A stretch of DNA of 64,000 nt, taken from Rhodovulum kholense (GTDB taxonomy: Bacteria; Pseudomonadota; Alphaproteobacteria; Rhodobacterales; Rhodobacteraceae). Below are positions 2,208-11,644 of this stretch, one piece after another (the stretch's first letter is position 1; each line of letters opens with the position of its first letter). The notes under the pieces were generated by a model that worked only from the letters and a program-made list of their open reading frames with translations, had not been told where the DNA came from and ran no database searches. The DNA is taken from NCBI RefSeq assembly GCF_003053725.1, contig NZ_QAYC01000001.1:248001-312000 (forward strand), in the 5' to 3' direction. The translations under genes and the position numbers were made by a program.

Positions 2208-2488
2208 ACTCCAATGGGCCGGGGACCGCGGGGCGCGACGGGATGCGCCCCGCGGTTCTGGCCGACGCGCGCCCCGCGCGGCGTTCCCGGGGGCGTCGCC
2301 TGTCGGGGTCCCGGCACCTGCCGTTGCGTCATCGATCCAACCGATCCGCGCGGGGTGCGGCGGGCTGAGCTTGCCTCCAACGGTTCGACCAGCGCCGCTT
2401 TCAACCGTGCCGCGTAATAGTATTTTACAGAATCGCCCATTAAGGCTAATTTTGTTTCTATTCAGTCTATAATCCATTGGGGTTTGCC
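2208..2488 (+). promoter_or_regulatory. AT-rich leader and candidate promoter of the giant-protein operon
   Basis: In an otherwise GC-rich region, 2411-2475 is conspicuously AT-rich. A perfect TATAAT lies at 2468-2473, only about 15 bases before ATG 2489. No good TTGACA-like element is visible at 16-18 bases upstream. If this -10 box is used, the transcript would start about 8-10 bases before the ATG, giving a very short leader. Confidence 0.4.
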
Positions 2489-5400
2489 ATGGCAGTCCGC
2501 CCCTCGTTGCGCTCGATTTCCGGGCTCTCTCTCGGTGCGTCCATTCCGGTTCAGGCGATTACCTCGCGAGGGGCCATCGTCTCTGCCATCGACGCGGCGA
2601 TCGACGATCTGGTGCTGATCCCGCGCGCGCCCGACGTGATCAAGAACATCTTCGAGAAGACCCGGCCGGGTCGGCCCGCGCTTCGGGTCGACGACCTGCT
2701 GGCCCTCCGGATCGAGCTGCGCAACTGCGAGATCGTGCCGGGCAACCCGCCGAAGCTCCGCAAGAGTGCGGGCGGCACCGGGCGGCTGATCCTGCATTTT
2801 CCGCCCCAGACGGTGACCGAAGAGACCTTCTTCCAGCCGCCGCCGCCCAAGATCGGCAAGCCGGTTCCGGCCGCTCCGAAATACGCCAATCCCAAGGACC
2901 AACCCAAGCCCGAGCCCGCCAACCCGGCCGCCGACGAGGCGCTGCGCGAACCACCGATCCGCGCCCGCATCGCCGATGAATCGCGGCTGTCCTTTCTGGT
3001 GCCCGATGGCTTCGAGATCGACTACACGCTCGAAGGCGTGCTGGCAGCCTGCCAGACGCTGACCCTGTCGGTGGCCAGCAATGCCAAGCCGCGCAGCCAG
3101 CCCAGCCTGTTCCTGCCGCTGACCGACCTGATCCGTGACGGCGCGCTGAACGCGCTGTCGGTCAAGGCGCGGGCGCAGCTTGCCGGTCATGTGGCGTCCT
3201 CGTTCCGGCTGGCGGCCAGCGAGGGCGGCGACATCACCACGCTGCGCGCCCGCCAGGCCAGCGCCAACGCGGCGGTCTTCGAACGCATCCCCGACCGGGT
3301 GATCGTGGCCCCGGGTGGCGCGAAGCCCCGGCCCGGCAACCCCACCGCGACGACCACTGCCATCGAGATGCCCTGGCGGCTGATCGTGTCGCCCCATGCG
3401 GGGGCGAAATGGCGCCATGCGACGCGGCCCGCGCTGTCGGCCTCGACCGCGCATGTCGAGCTTTGGCACACGCGGATGGTCACGCCCGGGTCGGACGGCA
3501 CCGAGATCCCGCCGCCCTATGCCGATCCGGCCCGCACCATCCGCGCGGTCTGGGCGCGCTCGGGCACCGGTTCCGAGGCCGCGAACCCGCCCATGGGACC
3601 CGCCTGGCCCACACGCTCGCCGGGGGTGCCGCCGAGCCAGCCCAACGATGCGCTGCCATTGCCGGGCGGGCGGCCGTTCCGGATGCCGCTGGACGATTTC
3701 GACCGGTTCCAGATCGCGCATCTCTCTTCGAACTTCTCGGTCAACGGCTACACGCCCGAACCCGTCGATACCAACCTTCTGATGCTGTCCTCGCTGGGCG
3801 GCTGGCTCGATTCGCGCGGGTCCTGGAACCCGCCGGGCCTGTCGGTCGAGGAATGGGTGCATCGCGGCGCGATGGGCCGGGACCATTACGTCAAGGTCGT
3901 CTATCGCGGCTGCCTGTGTCCGCTGAACTGCCGGGTCTCGCTGGTCAAGGTGACCGAACGCAAGTTCCACAAGCGCAGTTCCGAAACGCCCGGCTCGCAG
4001 GACGGCTATGACCGCAGCCAGCACGCCTATCTGCGCCAGCGCTATTTCATCATCATCCGCGAACGCGTGCTGACCTTCGACGACGCGCTGTTCCATGCCG
4101 CGAAAAGCACCGACAACACGGTCAATTTCGCCCGCCAGTTCCCGTTCTCGAAAATCGAGATCCTGACCGAGCGCACGCCCGATCTGGACGATCCGGTCGA
4201 TACAGACGTGTCGAATGCGGGGCAGCTTTTCTTCTGGCCCGCGGTCAATGGCGAACCGTTCCGGTTCCAATGCGCGGGCACCGATCTTGACGGCCATCGG
4301 GTGCTGTTCGATCTGCCGATGATCTTCATGGACAATACCGTGTCCTGCCCGCGGATCTTCAACCCGGTGACCGAACGGCTTGACGCGGACTATCCCGCCG
4401 CCGCCTTCAATGCCGCGACCGCCGCCGAGGAATACGCGAAATGGCCCCAGCGCCATACCGTGCCCTTCGATTTCCAGCGTGTGGCGCTGGCCACCTCGGC
4501 CAAGTCCGGCGACACCGCCGTCGAAGTCGAGGAGATGGTGCTGGGCGCCGAGGCGCCGAGGCGCGGCGCGCCGGGCCAGCAACCCATCCGCAACGCCACC
4601 ATCGAGGCCTGGAGCCGCGATCTGTCGCGCGCGCTTTTCCTGCCGAAGATCGTTCAGACCACCGCGCGGCTCGGGCCGGTGAACCAGCTGACCGGCTCGA
4701 CCCGCACCAACCGGCTGAGCTGGAACGCGCGCTATCTGCAATTCGGTTTCGCCGCCGGTCCCGGCGCCCCGGTCGGTCAGCGCAACGTGGGCGAGGTCTT
4801 CGCCGATATCGTGCAAAGCCCGGGCATGGGCATGCTCGACTTCTCGTCCCAGGGCGACAAGTCGGGCGGCTTCGTCCAGCCGAACCTCAGGCCGCGCGCC
4901 CTGTCGCGGATGGCCGGGCCGGTGATGTCGGACGTGACCCAGTTTCTCGACGGGCAGATGGAGCCGGGGGCGGGGTTCCCGATCTCGGTCAGCGACCTGC
5001 CGCTGCCGCTGTTGTTCGGCTGCATCCCGCTGGGCGAGCTGATCAAGGCCGTGACCGACATCGCGGGCGAGGGCGAGAAGGTGCCCCGCTTCGTTTCCGA
5101 GGCGGGCACCCAGGTCGAAAGCTTCATCGGGGCGCTGGTCCAGCTTTTCGGGCTGACCTATGACCTGCCGCGCGGCGTGCTGGGGCAGGGGGCGGGCGGT
5201 CTGGCCCAGGCGGTCGCGAAAATCACCGATCTGGGTCAGCAGGGGCAGGTGGCCCCGGCCGCGTTGCAGGCCGCGCTGGCCAAGCTTTCCGAGATCGAGG
5301 CGCTGATCGCGGGGCTCAGGACCACGCTGGAAAGCCTGTCGAGCCAGGCGCTTGACGGCATCGGCACGGCGCCCGACTTTGCCGCGCTGCCCGGCCAGAT

Positions 5401-6871
5401 CGCGACGATCCAGACCCGGATCGCCGAGCTTCTGGCCATCGTCAACGGACCGCAGGGCAATGCCATTCCGGCCAATCTGCGCCAGCAGATCCGGGCCCTC
5501 GCGACCGGGCTCGACACCTTGCTGGAAGCGGTCGGGGACAGTGCCGCGCTGTTTTCGGCGGCCAAGGACCTCTGGGACGCGCTTGACGCCATCGTGGGCG
5601 ATCCGACGGTGCTGGCCAACCTGCTGTCCGACGGGGCCGGGCTGGAAGCGAAGATCAACGATGTCGTCGCGGCGCTGGACCCGTTCGAGACCGCGATCCG
5701 CGACTTCGACCTTCTGGGCGCGGCGCCCAAGGCCGCGATCCTCAAGGCGCTGGGCGCGGTCCGCGAGGTGCTGGAGGCGGCGGCCGATCTGGCCAGGCTG
5801 ATCGAGGCGCTGACCGGGGACGAGCTGACCATCCGCTTCGACTGGGCGCCCGAGATCGGCAACTGGCCCGCCGCCGCCGGCGACGAGATCTTCCGCGCGA
5901 ACGACAAGCGCGGCTTCGTCGTCGCGGTCGAGGGCAAGGTCAAGAAGAACGGCAGTTCCAGCCCGAAAATCGCCGTGACCTGTTCGCTGAACCGCTTCGA
6001 TCTGGTGCTGATCGGCAAGGCGTCTTTCCTGGAACTGAACTTCGACCGCATCGTCTTTGCGGTCGACAGCGCCGCCAAGATGGATGTCGACGTGGTGCTG
6101 GACGACATCCGCTTTGTCGGGCCTCTGTCCTTCGTCGAGACGTTGCGCGACCTGATCCCGCTCGACGGGTTTTCGGACCCGCCCTATCTCGACATCACCC
6201 CGCAGGGCATCCATGCGGGCTTCGACATCGCGCTGCCCTCGATCTGCGTGGGCGTGCTGAACATCAGCAATCTCAGCCTTGGCGCGGGCTTCACCGTGCC
6301 CTTCATCGGCCAGCCGCTGTCGGTCGCCTTCAACTTCTGCACCCGCGAACAGCCCTTCTGCCTGACGGTCTATTGCTTTGGCGGCGGCGGCTTCTTCGGC
6401 GTGACCATCGACCCCAGAGGCGTGCAGATCCTCGAGGCGGCCCTGGAATTCGGCGCCTCGCTGTCTGTCGATTTCGGCGTCGCCTCGGGCGGGGTCGAGG
6501 TGATGGCGGGCTTCTATTACCGGATGGAGCTGCAAGAGGCCTCGCTGACCGGCTATTTCCGGCTGGGCGGCCATGTCAGCGTGCTGGGGCTGATCTCGGC
6601 CTCGCTCGAACTGTATCTGGAGCTTCGCTACGAATTCTCGTCGGGCAAATGCGTGGGCATGGCGCAGCTGACCATCGAGGTGTCGGTGCTGTTCTTCTCG
6701 GGCAGCGTGACGATCCGCTGCCAGAAGAAATTCGCGGGCTCGAACGGCGACCCGAGCTTGCGCGAAATGATGGGCTTCGATGCGAGCCTGCCGCTGGCCG
6801 ACGAGCTGGCGGCGATCTCGGGGTCCGACGTGAATTATGCCTGGCGCGACTATGTCGAGGCCTTCGGCTGA
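2489..6871 (+). CDS. Giant protein of unknown function, first gene of a two-gene operon (1460 aa)
   Basis: I do not recognise this protein. The ATG at 2489 is preferred to the in-frame TTG at 2477 because TTGGGG lies about 6-9 bases before it. Residues 1-110 are a compact N-terminal part, about 110-155 a Pro/Lys-rich linker, and 155-900 mixed sequence. A Cys cluster C-x-C-x3-C sits near residue 475-481 and ELWHTRM near 325. Residues about 910-1110 are Ala/Leu-rich and predicted helical or coiled-coil-like. From about 1110 to the end the sequence looks beta-rich with many Gly and aromatic residues, including CFGGGGFFGV near 1297. No signal peptide or clear transmembrane helix is visible. Codon use matches the neighbours. 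It is followed 12 bases later by a second giant gene. It could be a structural or scaffold-like component; that is speculation. Confidence 0.8.
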   Translation: MAVRPSLRSISGLSLGASIPVQAITSRGAIVSAIDAAIDDLVLIPRAPDVIKNIFEKTRPGRPALRVDDLLALRIELRNCEIVPGNPPKLRKSAGGTGRLILHFPPQTVTEETFFQPPPPKIGKPVPAAPKYANPKDQPKPEPANPAADEALREPPIRARIADESRLSFLVPDGFEIDYTLEGVLAACQTLTLSVASNAKPRSQPSLFLPLTDLIRDGALNALSVKARAQLAGHVASSFRLAASEGGDITTLRARQASANAAVFERIPDRVIVAPGGAKPRPGNPTATTTAIEMPWRLIVSPHAGAKWRHATRPALSASTAHVELWHTRMVTPGSDGTEIPPPYADPARTIRAVWARSGTGSEAANPPMGPAWPTRSPGVPPSQPNDALPLPGGRPFRMPLDDFDRFQIAHLSSNFSVNGYTPEPVDTNLLMLSSLGGWLDSRGSWNPPGLSVEEWVHRGAMGRDHYVKVVYRGCLCPLNCRVSLVKVTERKFHKRSSETPGSQDGYDRSQHAYLRQRYFIIIRERVLTFDDALFHAAKSTDNTVNFARQFPFSKIEILTERTPDLDDPVDTDVSNAGQLFFWPAVNGEPFRFQCAGTDLDGHRVLFDLPMIFMDNTVSCPRIFNPVTERLDADYPAAAFNAATAAEEYAKWPQRHTVPFDFQRVALATSAKSGDTAVEVEEMVLGAEAPRRGAPGQQPIRNATIEAWSRDLSRALFLPKIVQTTARLGPVNQLTGSTRTNRLSWNARYLQFGFAAGPGAPVGQRNVGEVFADIVQSPGMGMLDFSSQGDKSGGFVQPNLRPRALSRMAGPVMSDVTQFLDGQMEPGAGFPISVSDLPLPLLFGCIPLGELIKAVTDIAGEGEKVPRFVSEAGTQVESFIGALVQLFGLTYDLPRGVLGQGAGGLAQAVAKITDLGQQGQVAPAALQAALAKLSEIEALIAGLRTTLESLSSQALDGIGTAPDFAALPGQIATIQTRIAELLAIVNGPQGNAIPANLRQQIRALATGLDTLLEAVGDSAALFSAAKDLWDALDAIVGDPTVLANLLSDGAGLEAKINDVVAALDPFETAIRDFDLLGAAPKAAILKALGAVREVLEAAADLARLIEALTGDELTIRFDWAPEIGNWPAAAGDEIFRANDKRGFVVAVEGKVKKNGSSSPKIAVTCSLNRFDLVLIGKASFLELNFDRIVFAVDSAAKMDVDVVLDDIRFVGPLSFVETLRDLIPLDGFSDPPYLDITPQGIHAGFDIALPSICVGVLNISNLSLGAGFTVPFIGQPLSVAFNFCTREQPFCLTVYCFGGGGFFGVTIDPRGVQILEAALEFGASLSVDFGVASGGVEVMAGFYYRMELQEASLTGYFRLGGHVSVLGLISASLELYLELRYEFSSGKCVGMAQLTIEVSVLFFSGSVTIRCQKKFAGSNGDPSLREMMGFDASLPLADELAAISGSDVNYAWRDYVEAFG

Positions 6872-6883
6872 GGGGGAATTACC

Positions 6884-9800
6884 ATGGCAGAGCAGTTTCT
6901 GGTCTGGACCGTCCTGCCCTATGGCCGCGTGGCCGACGGGGGCGAGCATGACGGCAAGTGGCGGGTCAGCCTTGTGGTCTCGCCCCGTCTGACGCCGCAG
7001 GCGCCCGACGAACAGGTGCTGAAAGCCTACGAGCCCTGGCTCGACTGGCCCGCCACGCTGGAGCGGGCAAATTTCCGGGGGCGGATCGGCAGCACGCTTG
7101 TGCGTCTGACCCCGGTCTCGAAACCCGACAGCGATCTCTGGAAACGCTTCTTCACCGAAGAGACCCCGGTTGCAGGTTTCGTCTATACCGACATGAGCCG
7201 GGTCAACCTGCGGTCTTACGCGGTGCGCAACGTGCTGGCCTTCGCGCGGCGCCATTACGGGCGGCTCGCGGCGCAGTCGGGGGACGAGCACCCTGTTCTC
7301 TTGCCCTGGAAGGATGCCGATCCCGCGCTGAAGGGCATGCTGGGCGATCTCGGGACGCGCACCCAGATCATCAATTTCGGCGACCGCTCGGTCGAGGTGC
7401 CGCTGCCGGGATTTTCGCGCTTCTTCGGCGAGGATATCGACAAGATCGTCGACCGGTCCGTCTTCTCGGACCATTCGGTCTTTCCGATGGCCGTGCCCGG
7501 GCCGGGCGTCGAGGGCGAGACGGGCACGCCCGATGCGTCCGAAAGCCGGCCGCGCCGCGCATTGCCGCCCGACTGGGTGCCGCCCGCGGCTGCGGGGGCG
7601 GCGGCCGGCGTGATGGGACAGTTCACCTCGGCCGACGAATACACCTTCTATCAGGCCGACCGCTTCTACCGCCGGACCCGCGCGAGCGACCTGGAAAAGC
7701 TCAAGCGCCGCCCCGATTTCAAGGACGTGACCCCGCCGCCGCCTGCGCCCGAGTACGATTTCCACCGGATCGTGGCGTCTTATGCCGATTATGGCGATCT
7801 GAAACGCGGGCTGGGGCTGGTGATCGACTGCGTGCTCGACACCGGCAAGGTCATCGACGACCGGATCGCGGCGGGCGGCGGCACCGGCATCGGGCAGATG
7901 CAGTTGGTGCTGAAATGGGACGGGCCCGCGCCCGGCAAGGACGCCACGCCCCGCACCGCCTGGCTGGCCCGCAAGGACCGGTTCGTGCCGCGCCCGCGCA
8001 GCGCGCAGCATGACGCGGGGCTTCTGCGGCTCGAGGACAGCGACGATGGCTGGCAGGTGGCCAAGGACGAAAAGCCCGGCCTTTTCGATCTTTATCAGGT
8101 CGATCCCGATGGCGCGGCGCTGAAGACGGTGAACTTCGCGCTGACCGCGCAGAACCTCGTGGCCCGCAGCCTGAGCCTGCGCCAGAGCCATGGCGAGGTG
8201 ACCTACACGACGCCCGACCGGCAGGGCGTGGCGGCGCTGCGGTCAGGCGGGATCGGGGTGTCGCAGCACGGCCGCGCCACCGATCTGGCCCAACTGGCCG
8301 CCGCGGCCGATCTGAAGAATGCCGAGATCGCGGCCGGCAATGCCGACAAGGTGGTGCTGTTTGCCGAGGATGTGCATCGCGGCTATCGCATCGACGTGGC
8401 CCGGGTGCCCGACCGGGTCCATCCCGGCGACTGGCAGAGCCTGCAGGCCCGGGTCGGCGACTATCGCGTGATCTCGACCGGCGAGCAGCTGAAATTCCCG
8501 CCCGACGAGGGCTATGTCTCGGGCCATTCGGTATCGGGCGATCCCGACAACGCGGACGAACAGTACCTGCATGAAAGCCTGTTCCGCTGGTCGGGCTGGA
8601 GCCTGGCCGCGCCGCGCCCCGGCAGGACCATCCGGTCGGAAACCGGCGAGGACGACAACCTTCAGGCCGAACTGCCCGCCGATGTCACCGACACCGCCGA
8701 AAAGGGCAACGATCTGGCCGTCACCTTTGCGGCCCAGAAGGGAACCTTGCCGCGCCTGCGCTTCGGCGCGCTGTACCGGCTGCGGGCGCGGGTCGTCGAT
8801 CTGGCGGGCAATTCGCTGGGCCTCAAGGACCCCTCGCTGGGCGATCTGGAACAGGCCAGCGACGCGGTCGGCTACTGGCGCTTCGAGCCGGTCGATCCGC
8901 CCGTGCTGGTCCAGCGCGAAAGGCTGAGCGAGGGCGAACAGCTGGAACGGCTGGTGATCCGGTCGAATTTCAACGCAACGACCGGAGAATATCTCAACGA
9001 TCCCGATTTCCAGGCAGCGGCGGCCCAACCGGCTTCGGCCGATTTCGCCTATACCGAAACCAACCAGCGCCATCTGGTGCCGCCCAAATCCTCGCAGCAG
9101 CAATGCGAGACCCATGGCTTCTTCGATCCGTTCTTCGGCGACTGGCAGCGCATCCGCGAGGGCTACGCCATCGCCGCGCGCGAGGTGGGCACGCTTTACG
9201 ACCCGCTGCCGGGCGCGCAGATCGAGCTGATCACGCCGCAGACGCTGGGGGCCATCGCCACCACGGCCGCGGTGCCGCCCGCGCTGCCCTCGGCTGACAA
9301 CCCGGTCGGCGACCGGATGGCGGGCGGGCAATACGTGATCCACCGCGAAGCCGCGCTGACCACGCCCTATCTGCCCGACGGGGCGACGGGCGGCATCTCG
9401 ATCCGGGCGGCGCGCGGCCATGCGTTGCCGGGGATCGACGACGAGATGGTGCTGGGCCCCAGTGCCCGGGTCGTGCGCGACGACCGCGAGCGGTTGATCC
9501 TGCTGGTCCGGCATGGCGGGGACTGGCCCGATCTGGCGGGGTTCCGTCTCGTTCTGGCCGAACGCGCCGAGACCGACAGCGAATTGCCCTGCATGGTCGA
9601 TTTCCCCGACAAGGGCCTGCCGGTCTGGGACGAAGACAAGCGTGAGCTGACCCTTTTCGTCGAGAAAGGCCGGATCGTGCGGCTTTTCTATGCCAGCTTC
9701 GTCTCGCCCCGGCATCTCGACAGTTTCGGCATCCCGCACTGGACCGAGTCGGCCAAGGCCGCCGAGGCCTGCCGCAAGGCCGCCGCGATGGGCACCAACT

Positions 9801-11644
9801 GGTTGATGACGCCCTATCGCCCGCTGACGCTGGTCCATGCCACCCAGGCGCCGGTCTGCCGCCCCGAGATGATCCAGATGATCACGAGCCGGGGCAGGGG
9901 CGACCGCGAGCTGCGCCTCTCCTGCCGTCAGGTGCGGCTGCACGGTCCCTCGACCGGCAAGATCGAGATCGAGGCCGACTGGTCGGAATGGGTCGACGAC
10001 ATCGCCAAACCCCGGCCCGAGCGTGTCGCCTTCCGCGGCCAGCTGGGCGAGGTGCGGCTGGCCGAGAACCACCCCAACGCTCTGGTGCTTTCGACGGCCG
10101 TCTCGGCGCAGCTGACCGACCCCGAGGCCAAGCGCGGCGACGTGCATGATCTTGGCGACACCCGGTTCCGGCTGATCGCCTACCGGATGCGCGCAACGAC
10201 CCGATTCCGCGAATACCTGCCGCCCGCGCTCTACGGACGAACCGATCTGGTCACGCAGCTGGGGCCGGTTGCGCTGGGCGAGCCGATGGCCTTGCCGCCC
10301 GAGGACGACATGGGGGCGCCCGTGCTGCCCGATCCCGCGGGCTCGACCGCGCAGACCCGGGTGCTGGCCTCGGCTCCGCCCAAAGACCCGCGGTTGCTGT
10401 ATGTCGTGCCCACCTTCCGCTGGAGCCGCAGCACCGGCGCGACCGGCTATACCGCGACGCGGACCGGCAACGGGTTGCGGGTCTGGCTCGACCGGCCCTG
10501 GTTCAGTTCGGGCGATGGCGAGTTGCTGGGGGTGGTCCTTCACCGCGATGGCGGCAATTTCAACGAGATCCCGGAACGGTTCGAAAAGCTTGTCACCCAA
10601 TGGGGGACCGATCCGCTTTGGCAAAGCCCGGCGCCCAAGCAGACGATCCGCGACGCCGACTTCCCGGCCCGGGTGACCGCCGAAACGCTAGCGCTGCAGG
10701 AACAGCGCCCGGGCGATCCCTCTGTGCGGATCGTCGGGCATCGGGTGCATTGGGATGACGACCGGCGGCTTTGGTATTGCGATATCGAACTGTCGCCCGG
10801 GTCGAGCTACATGCCCTTCGTGCGGCTGGCGCTGGTGCGCTATCAGCCCAATGCGATGCCGGGGGCCAGGATCTCGCGTGTGGTTCTGGCCGAGTTTGCC
10901 CAGGTGCTGCCGCGCCGCCGGGTGCGGGCGACGCGCTCGGGCTCGGTGCTGTCGGTCAGCCTGCACGGGCCGGACCCGGAAAGCGGGCCGCTGCGCTTTG
11001 ACCGCGACTCCGCTTTCCAGACCGTGTCCTTCGTCAACGGGCCCTTCGAGACCGGCCGCAACCGGGTCGAGATCGTGCTGCAGCGCCAGAAGGACGGGAT
11101 CGACAGCGATCTGGCCTGGGAAGACGTGCAGGTGCTGCACGACCATGTCGTGGGCGAGGAAGAGGAAGGCGGCATCGGCCCGGTCTTCTCGCCGGGGGGG
11201 CTGTCCGCGGCCCGCGACGGGGTGCTGTCGCTTGACCGTCTCGCGGGGACGGGGGCGCTCTCGGCCACCGTGTCGCCCGGACCCGCAGGGGGCCGCATCG
11301 TGACACCGGCGGCGGGTGGCCGGGTCACCCTGCCGCCCGCCGAGGATCGCAGTCTGGCCATCGGCCGCGCGCTGGGCACCGCGATGGGCGGCACGATCGG
11401 GGATCTGGTCACGCCGACCCGCCCGATCGACCCGTTCCTGCCCGATCCCGCCTTCTGGGACGCCAGAGTGACGCTGCCCGGCGGTGCGGGGCCGCGCCGC
11501 ATTCTGGTCCGCGAGTTCGAGCGGTTCTATTCCGACAACACCGTCAACGAGCGCCATGGCGGACGGGTCTTCCCGCGCCGGATCATCGAGGAACGTCTGG
11601 TCTTTGCCGAAACCTTCGACCCCGAGGCCCTGCTGGTCCGCTGA
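6884..11644 (+). CDS. Giant protein of unknown function, second gene of a two-gene operon (1586 aa)
   Basis: I do not recognise this protein. It starts at ATG 6884 with GAGGGGG about 8 bases upstream, 12 bases after the preceding stop, so the two genes are surely co-transcribed. The protein is long, soluble-looking and rich in Trp, Arg, Asp and Pro, with no signal peptide. Visible landmarks are an acidic/aromatic stretch EYTFYQADRFYRR near residue 252, a beta-sandwich-like piece RARVVDLAGNSLG near 635, PYRPLTLVHATQAP near 980, and a Trp/Gly-rich segment with WFSSGDGELLGVV (about 1206) and TQWGTDPLW (about 1238). A hairpin CCCCG-CTT-CGGGG follows the stop at 11645-11657. Two cytosolic proteins of this size in one operon suggest a large complex; the function is open. 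Confidence 0.8.
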   Translation: MAEQFLVWTVLPYGRVADGGEHDGKWRVSLVVSPRLTPQAPDEQVLKAYEPWLDWPATLERANFRGRIGSTLVRLTPVSKPDSDLWKRFFTEETPVAGFVYTDMSRVNLRSYAVRNVLAFARRHYGRLAAQSGDEHPVLLPWKDADPALKGMLGDLGTRTQIINFGDRSVEVPLPGFSRFFGEDIDKIVDRSVFSDHSVFPMAVPGPGVEGETGTPDASESRPRRALPPDWVPPAAAGAAAGVMGQFTSADEYTFYQADRFYRRTRASDLEKLKRRPDFKDVTPPPPAPEYDFHRIVASYADYGDLKRGLGLVIDCVLDTGKVIDDRIAAGGGTGIGQMQLVLKWDGPAPGKDATPRTAWLARKDRFVPRPRSAQHDAGLLRLEDSDDGWQVAKDEKPGLFDLYQVDPDGAALKTVNFALTAQNLVARSLSLRQSHGEVTYTTPDRQGVAALRSGGIGVSQHGRATDLAQLAAAADLKNAEIAAGNADKVVLFAEDVHRGYRIDVARVPDRVHPGDWQSLQARVGDYRVISTGEQLKFPPDEGYVSGHSVSGDPDNADEQYLHESLFRWSGWSLAAPRPGRTIRSETGEDDNLQAELPADVTDTAEKGNDLAVTFAAQKGTLPRLRFGALYRLRARVVDLAGNSLGLKDPSLGDLEQASDAVGYWRFEPVDPPVLVQRERLSEGEQLERLVIRSNFNATTGEYLNDPDFQAAAAQPASADFAYTETNQRHLVPPKSSQQQCETHGFFDPFFGDWQRIREGYAIAAREVGTLYDPLPGAQIELITPQTLGAIATTAAVPPALPSADNPVGDRMAGGQYVIHREAALTTPYLPDGATGGISIRAARGHALPGIDDEMVLGPSARVVRDDRERLILLVRHGGDWPDLAGFRLVLAERAETDSELPCMVDFPDKGLPVWDEDKRELTLFVEKGRIVRLFYASFVSPRHLDSFGIPHWTESAKAAEACRKAAAMGTNWLMTPYRPLTLVHATQAPVCRPEMIQMITSRGRGDRELRLSCRQVRLHGPSTGKIEIEADWSEWVDDIAKPRPERVAFRGQLGEVRLAENHPNALVLSTAVSAQLTDPEAKRGDVHDLGDTRFRLIAYRMRATTRFREYLPPALYGRTDLVTQLGPVALGEPMALPPEDDMGAPVLPDPAGSTAQTRVLASAPPKDPRLLYVVPTFRWSRSTGATGYTATRTGNGLRVWLDRPWFSSGDGELLGVVLHRDGGNFNEIPERFEKLVTQWGTDPLWQSPAPKQTIRDADFPARVTAETLALQEQRPGDPSVRIVGHRVHWDDDRRLWYCDIELSPGSSYMPFVRLALVRYQPNAMPGARISRVVLAEFAQVLPRRRVRATRSGSVLSVSLHGPDPESGPLRFDRDSAFQTVSFVNGPFETGRNRVEIVLQRQKDGIDSDLAWEDVQVLHDHVVGEEEEGGIGPVFSPGGLSAARDGVLSLDRLAGTGALSATVSPGPAGGRIVTPAAGGRVTLPPAEDRSLAIGRALGTAMGGTIGDLVTPTRPIDPFLPDPAFWDARVTLPGGAGPRRILVREFERFYSDNTVNERHGGRVFPRRIIEERLVFAETFDPEALLVR

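Follow-up and report, generated by a model that had tools for sequence, protein, structure and literature searches.

What do two giant neighbouring genes of Rhodovulum kholense, which match none of the known families searched, encode between them? The genes, here called A and B, lie in the 64,000-nucleotide stretch of the host contig analysed in this work (the window; Table 1). A first-pass annotation had described them as two giant genes 12 bases apart, with good ribosome sites and GC-typical codon use. The coordinates and the 12-base spacing were confirmed, and likely ribosome-binding sites precede both start codons. GC by codon position is 0.66/0.48/0.88 in A and 0.71/0.50/0.86 in B, values that are typical of real genes. 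Upstream, the reading frame of A extends only to a TTG at 2477, 12 bases before the ATG. An antisense open reading frame at 2462-8191 (1909 aa), opposite A and part of B, has the mirrored GC-by-codon-position pattern and was rejected as an artefact of high GC content.

Two other genes are found at this end of the window. A c-type cytochrome gene (1698-2204) precedes A on the same strand, and a TrkH-like gene (3-1283) lies on the opposite strand and runs off the window start.

Table 1. Features of the A/B locus, in window positions.
Feature	Position	Strand	Extent or basis
Likely ribosome-binding site of A (GGGG)	2479..2482	+	Sequence inspection
Gene A	2489..6871	+	ATG 2489, stop 6871; 1460 aa
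Helical insert of A	5096..5818	+	Residues 870-1110; alignment A1 and helix moment
Gly-rich beta-like C-terminal domain of A	5831..6718	+	Residues 1115-1410; recognisable in all three A clades
Likely ribosome-binding site of B (GAGGGGG)	6870..6876	+	Overlaps the stop codon of A, 7 bases before the ATG of B
Gene B	6884..11644	+	ATG 6884, stop 11644; 1586 aa; partner of A
Most widely conserved stretch of B	10361..10933	+	Residues 1160-1350; LRVWLDRPWFSSGDGE ... WYCDIEL ... PFVRLALVRYQP

Purifying selection acts on both genes. In Rhodovulum visakhapatnamense, where A and B are each 97% identical to the window proteins, dN/dS is 0.094 for A and 0.107 for B, and the substitutions are mostly synonymous. 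Litoreibacter carries a pair about 64% identical to that of the window; here dN/dS is 0.158 for A and 0.154 for B, with synonymous sites near saturation. Within its own genome, B has one match.

The first-pass annotation could name no family for either protein, and the searches agree with it. Neither A nor B of the window has a match over the curated cut-off in Pfam or NCBIfam in searches up to E = 1, and within that limit NCBIfam returned nothing for either. PADLOC models gave no family for A and none for B at E up to 0.01. PDB sequences, compared with both proteins and their profiles, gave nothing below E 0.069, and PHROGs gave only three weak matches for the two proteins (E 0.12-0.96). Comparison of the A and B profiles revealed no relation between them. 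The pair was not found in the literature, judged by titles and the beginnings of abstracts, and the protein accessions of six relatives were likewise absent.

Relatives were scanned with Pfam through three alignments, A1 (10 rows), A2 (11 B rows) and A5 (27 C-terminal domains of A), each of which holds the window as one row. No match at E <= 0.001 was obtained from these rows, with the exception of PG_binding_1 in the B of Streptomyces nigrescens (L013), where an insert at residues 655-698 scores 22.1 bits, under the cut-off of 23. Several other candidates were rejected. Baculo_PEP_C matches the helical stretch of window A with 17.9 bits against a cut-off of 38, which was judged a match of composition. 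The same model in three of ten A rows (E 0.0034) and Plug in one of 27 (E 0.0027) were taken for chance or composition. Matches to Baculo_PEP_C, apolipoprotein and PHROG tail proteins were all at E 0.0034 or worse; those that could be placed fall on the helical stretch and were likewise put down to composition.

Some structure may be read from the sequences. A helical middle and a Gly-rich, beta-like C terminus had been proposed for A, and hydrophobic-moment calculations, the only basis for these assignments, fit both parts: the moment is 0.35 for helix against 0.26 for beta in the insert, and 0.37 for beta against 0.24 for helix in the C-terminal domain. In alignment A1, the insert appears in all six rows of the window clade, and the other four rows have a gap there. 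In B, the most widely conserved stretch was found in an alignment that took in 13 of the 24 B sequences supplied, the simple motif used having missed the other 11. The first-pass description of B as Trp-rich holds in part, since there is some enrichment, but with a Trp content of 1.9% it is mild. An AlphaFold model of B residues 390-1586, made from a three-row alignment, has a mean pLDDT of 25.9 and is unusable for reading the fold.

A structural or binding assembly is likelier than an enzyme, because A has a Gly-rich amphipathic beta end, and B resembles a string of beta-rich pieces whose C-terminal core is conserved. As a guess, the beta pattern of the A C terminus could suit a lipid-binding or sheet-forming domain.

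The A/B pair is real and mobile. Sequences of A or B were fetched from 32 loci, the window counted as one. The first-pass annotation had suggested asking whether homologues occur as a pair, and in 28 of the 32 loci A is indeed accompanied by a giant second gene in the same order and on the same strand. In 27 of them the giant gene in the B position directly adjoins or overlaps A; in G239 the two lie about 3 kb apart. Profiles identify both partners in 24 of these 28 loci; in the other four (L071, L074, G1119 and G1143) a giant gene occupies the second position but is not recognised as B. Of the four unpaired loci, L017, L018 and L073 hold truncated B remnants without A, and G808 has only a piece of A at the edge of a contig. 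Further hits lie outside the 32 fetched loci: H4 with H20, where both genes are matched side by side; H35-H37; and H31 with H32 (record CP140834), which are 100% identical to L074 over the query.

Hosts of the pair span Alpha- and Betaproteobacteria as well as Streptomyces. Both homologues also occur together in genomes beyond the plasmid records. Plasmids with both were found in Rhizobium, Sinorhizobium, Agrobacterium, Ruegeria, Cupriavidus, Diaphorobacter and Streptomyces, although the share of plasmids among the loci is partly due to the collection that was searched. Homologues in actinobacteria had been suspected in the first-pass annotation, and the pair does occur on three Streptomyces plasmids. 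The plasmid search and one pattern scan of genome contigs, neither of them aimed at cyanobacteria as a group, returned no cyanobacterium. Phage records gave no A or B match, and among IMG/VR contigs no relative was confirmed. The pair is rare: counting the centre genome each time, it was found in 3 of 295 genomes from the host family, in 5 of 398 from the phylum, in 3 of 385 from the class and in 4 of 151 from the family to which G558 belongs, all of which are lower bounds, as the first look was loose and the profiles miss far relatives.

Such rare and patchy occurrence would be expected if A and B were selfish or decaying plasmid cargo without a shared function, their pairing reflecting inheritance as one block. 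Broken or truncated copies are also present in several plasmids; among the paired loci, A is broken in L006 and L071, B in L070 and both in G239. Decay is difficult to reconcile with dN/dS near 0.1 between two close species, and with 24 loci in which both genes are recognised and have kept their order across a very deep divergence. This explanation is considered very unlikely.

A tree of the C-terminal domain of A (29 rows) separates three clades. The window clade has 8 rows (support 100/100). The second clade, called the Tat clade below, has 12 rows of mostly larger proteins (support 100/99), with A reaching 3311 aa. The third clade has 5 rows (support 100/99). Between the clades, without firm placement, fall three rows from Streptomyces and one from R. 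phaseoli, the latter on a long branch.

Many relatives of A begin with a twin-arginine motif, the signal for the Tat export system. N-termini were tested by one fixed rule for all sets, which asks for RR-x-hydrophobic-hydrophobic followed by an uncharged hydrophobic stretch; the 5'-truncated A rows G808 and G1165 were dropped before counting. The rule picks out 14 of 27 A N-termini, or 13 of 27 when L016 is set aside because its match lies upstream of the likely start. It picks out none of 27 B proteins, 13 of 538 coding-like background open reading frames of the same loci and 128 of 13500 shuffled A N-termini. Against the background frames, Fisher's test gives p = 9e-14 for 14 of 27 and 2e-12 for 13 of 27. 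This final rule is looser than an earlier one, which missed three motifs visible by eye and gave 8 of 23 for A, 7 of 557 for the background and 37 of 11500 for the shuffles.

In the tree, the motif is found in all 11 rows of the Tat clade with a readable start, and also in one Streptomyces row and in R. phaseoli; after several of the motifs an AxA-like cleavage site can be seen by eye. By the same rule, it is absent from the other two Streptomyces A proteins, from the four readable A proteins of the third clade, and from the seven A proteins that accompany the window in its clade. Neither A nor B of the window has the motif, and no Sec-type signal was seen in them by eye. To that extent, the earlier statement that the window proteins lack a signal peptide was borne out.

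This distribution is best explained if Tat export is the older state, or at least is present in several lineages, and the window carries a version without the motif. Loss of the signal in the window clade would then be more probable than its repeated gain elsewhere. Since the window clade has no Tat motif, its pair is presumably internal or leaves by another route.

A second type of evidence comes from genes next to the pair. In S. meliloti, a 55-aa TatA-like protein, annotated as tatA in the record, is encoded 49 bases after B and scores 36.7 bits with PF02416, for which the cut-off is 21. Scores above the same cut-off were obtained for a TatA-like gene 771 bases after B in G558 (33.7 bits) and for one in Ensifer adhaerens that lies 20 bases behind a truncated B (32.3 bits). 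No further credible TatA was found in the other loci by a simple pattern scan, which a divergent TatA could escape. One match of that pattern, at L009 36668-37264, was discarded by eye because a gene annotated on the opposite strand overlaps it. That TatA-like neighbours occur in three loci only, one of them with just a remnant of the pair, counts against predicted export.

The remaining neighbourhood varies between loci. In a search for shared neighbours, no conserved secretion partner turned up next to the pair; those neighbours that do recur belong, by eye and by annotation, to widespread families, among them transposases, ABC transporters and LysR-type regulators. Two less familiar cases were noted. 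An approximately 300-aa protein is encoded upstream of the pair on both a Streptomyces plasmid (L014:10184-11164) and a Rhizobium plasmid (L011:1531-2361), with 28% identity. A small protein with hydrophobic stretches is encoded downstream of the pair in Ruegeria (L009:30525-31157) and in G558 (L046:13268-13936), with about 33% identity over 118 residues. None of these four proteins has a Pfam match over the cut-off. In Ruegeria, a gene for an M35 metallo-endopeptidase (Aspzincin_M35; L009:31484-32080) follows the pair at a distance of about 2 kb.

The explanation that fits these observations best, and to which we give about an even chance, is a giant two-protein complex that in many relatives is exported folded through Tat, with B perhaps as a passenger, while in the window clade it stays inside the cell or takes another route. 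In this model, A and B would be the two subunits of one complex and would move together from one bacterium to another. Many relatives, and perhaps the ancestor, would fold the complex in the cytoplasm and then pass it through the Tat system. Protein A would supply the signal peptide, and B, without a signal of its own, would exit bound to A. Some loci would add their own TatA subunit. In the window clade, which has no motif, the Rhodovulum pair would act inside the cell or exit by a route not seen here. Alternatively, B might leave on its own or remain in the cell.

An example for such passenger export is PaoABC of E. coli, in which partners without a signal are reported to be exported together with a signal-bearing one (PMC4273604). 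The likeness to this Tat hitchhiker is that in the relatives one of two adjacent partners, A, has a twin-arginine motif and the other, B, does not. Unlike PaoABC, A and B are several times larger and no cofactor-enzyme domain was found in them; no sequence relation between the two systems was found either. Export of A and B is also a prediction, and the window pair itself lacks the motif.

Another parallel is found in bacteria with a second TatA paralogue, such as Campylobacter jejuni, which is reported to have tatA1 and tatA2 (PMC4148689). Both cases involve an extra TatA besides the usual one. Unlike in those bacteria, the extra TatA-like gene here adjoins the pair, in three relative loci, and the window is not among them.

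The Tat motifs would also suit a secreted envelope assembly in all clades, with the pair building, for instance, an adhesin or matrix at the cell surface or outside the cell. The window clade would then be exported otherwise, for example by means of an unrecognised N-terminus. Four small proteins with Sec-type N-termini (by eye) follow B in L070, L072 and L009, and the PG_binding_1 match of one Streptomyces B falls just under its cut-off, both of which agree with a place at the envelope. The window clade nevertheless shows neither a Tat motif nor, by eye, a Sec-type signal, and no conserved secretion partner of the pair came out of the shared-neighbour search. Secretion in every clade is therefore judged unlikely.

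Tat signals on relatives of A are a pointer to export rather than to phage-tail cargo. This bears on a further claim of the first-pass annotation, which had a faint impression of relatives near contractile injection loci. The corresponding explanation is that the phage-tail-like injection apparatus of the host takes up A and B as cargo or is decorated by them. As in the setting of an extracellular contractile injection system (eCIS), the host genome carries a contractile locus (L035, L036), which encodes sheath, two gp19-like tube proteins, PAAR, Phage_base_V and gp25 proteins, and Litoreibacter also has such a locus. The pair is, however, not linked to it. On the host contig the contractile locus occupies approximately 525.7-532.2 kb and the pair 250.5-259.6 kb, so that they are 266 kb apart, and in Litoreibacter they lie on different contigs. 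G759, a genome of the window clade, has no sheath gene. Sheath, tube and baseplate genes are named in none of 13 annotated plasmid regions, two of which (L018 and L073) hold B remnants only; five regions without annotation fall outside this check.

Co-occurrence was compared across genomes. Of 10 pair genomes, 3 have the sheath domain PF17482 (G808, with only an A fragment, is among them), against 30 of 198 genomes of the family, host included; Fisher's test gives p = 0.20, or 0.63 without G808, and ten pair genomes are too few either to claim an association or to exclude one. With the sheath model PF04984, two of 11 genomes or records gave a match, only one of them over its cut-off. The proximity to injection loci was not borne out, and a role in the injection apparatus is considered very improbable.

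Near its sheath gene, Litoreibacter encodes a 958-aa protein with an eCIS_core domain (PF13699; L038:11225-14098).

Finally, the pair could be a plasmid-borne module for defence against phages or other plasmids. Defence-type neighbours lie within the fetched region in 5 of 10 annotated alphaproteobacterial plasmid loci, a count uncontrolled for the usual density of defence genes on such plasmids and in which two of the ten (L018 and L073) hold B remnants only. The five are distant pairs on plasmids of rhizobial type. By PADLOC, these neighbours are SIR2 in L074, PtuB of Septu in L071, a type IIG restriction gene and a WYL regulator in L072, and a PDC-S73-like gene about 12 kb from B in L011; by annotation, L070 has Dpd genes. 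The proteins A and B themselves match no PADLOC model, and the neighbours of the pair vary between loci. No defence system is named in the annotated regions of Diaphorobacter and two Streptomyces, nor was one seen in the four window neighbours scanned. Secretion would also be unusual for a defence protein. A function in defence is quite unlikely on this evidence.

Export of a folded A/B complex would make unusual demands on the Tat system. In the Tat clade, the pair amounts to 3052 and 1766 residues in S. meliloti and to 3311 and 1899 residues in Ruegeria. A Tat cargo of about 5000 residues would be far larger than known Tat substrates, which speaks against the model. In the boldest form of the model, the Tat clade would export a folded complex of approximately 4800-5200 residues through Tat, in some loci with the help of a TatA from a neighbouring gene, and this would be a new class of giant extracellular assembly, the pair of the Rhodovulum clade being a cytoplasmic machine. 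We regard that form as rather doubtful.

If A and B are exported together in a folded state, they would provide a natural test of the cargo-size limit of the Tat pore, and of whether the pore scales with extra TatA. To our knowledge, this pore has mostly been probed with small or artificial cargoes. Such joint export would also assign a place to both families, whose members carry no annotation beyond 'hypothetical protein', or one based on a helical stretch, in the rhizobial, betaproteobacterial and Streptomyces plasmid records examined.
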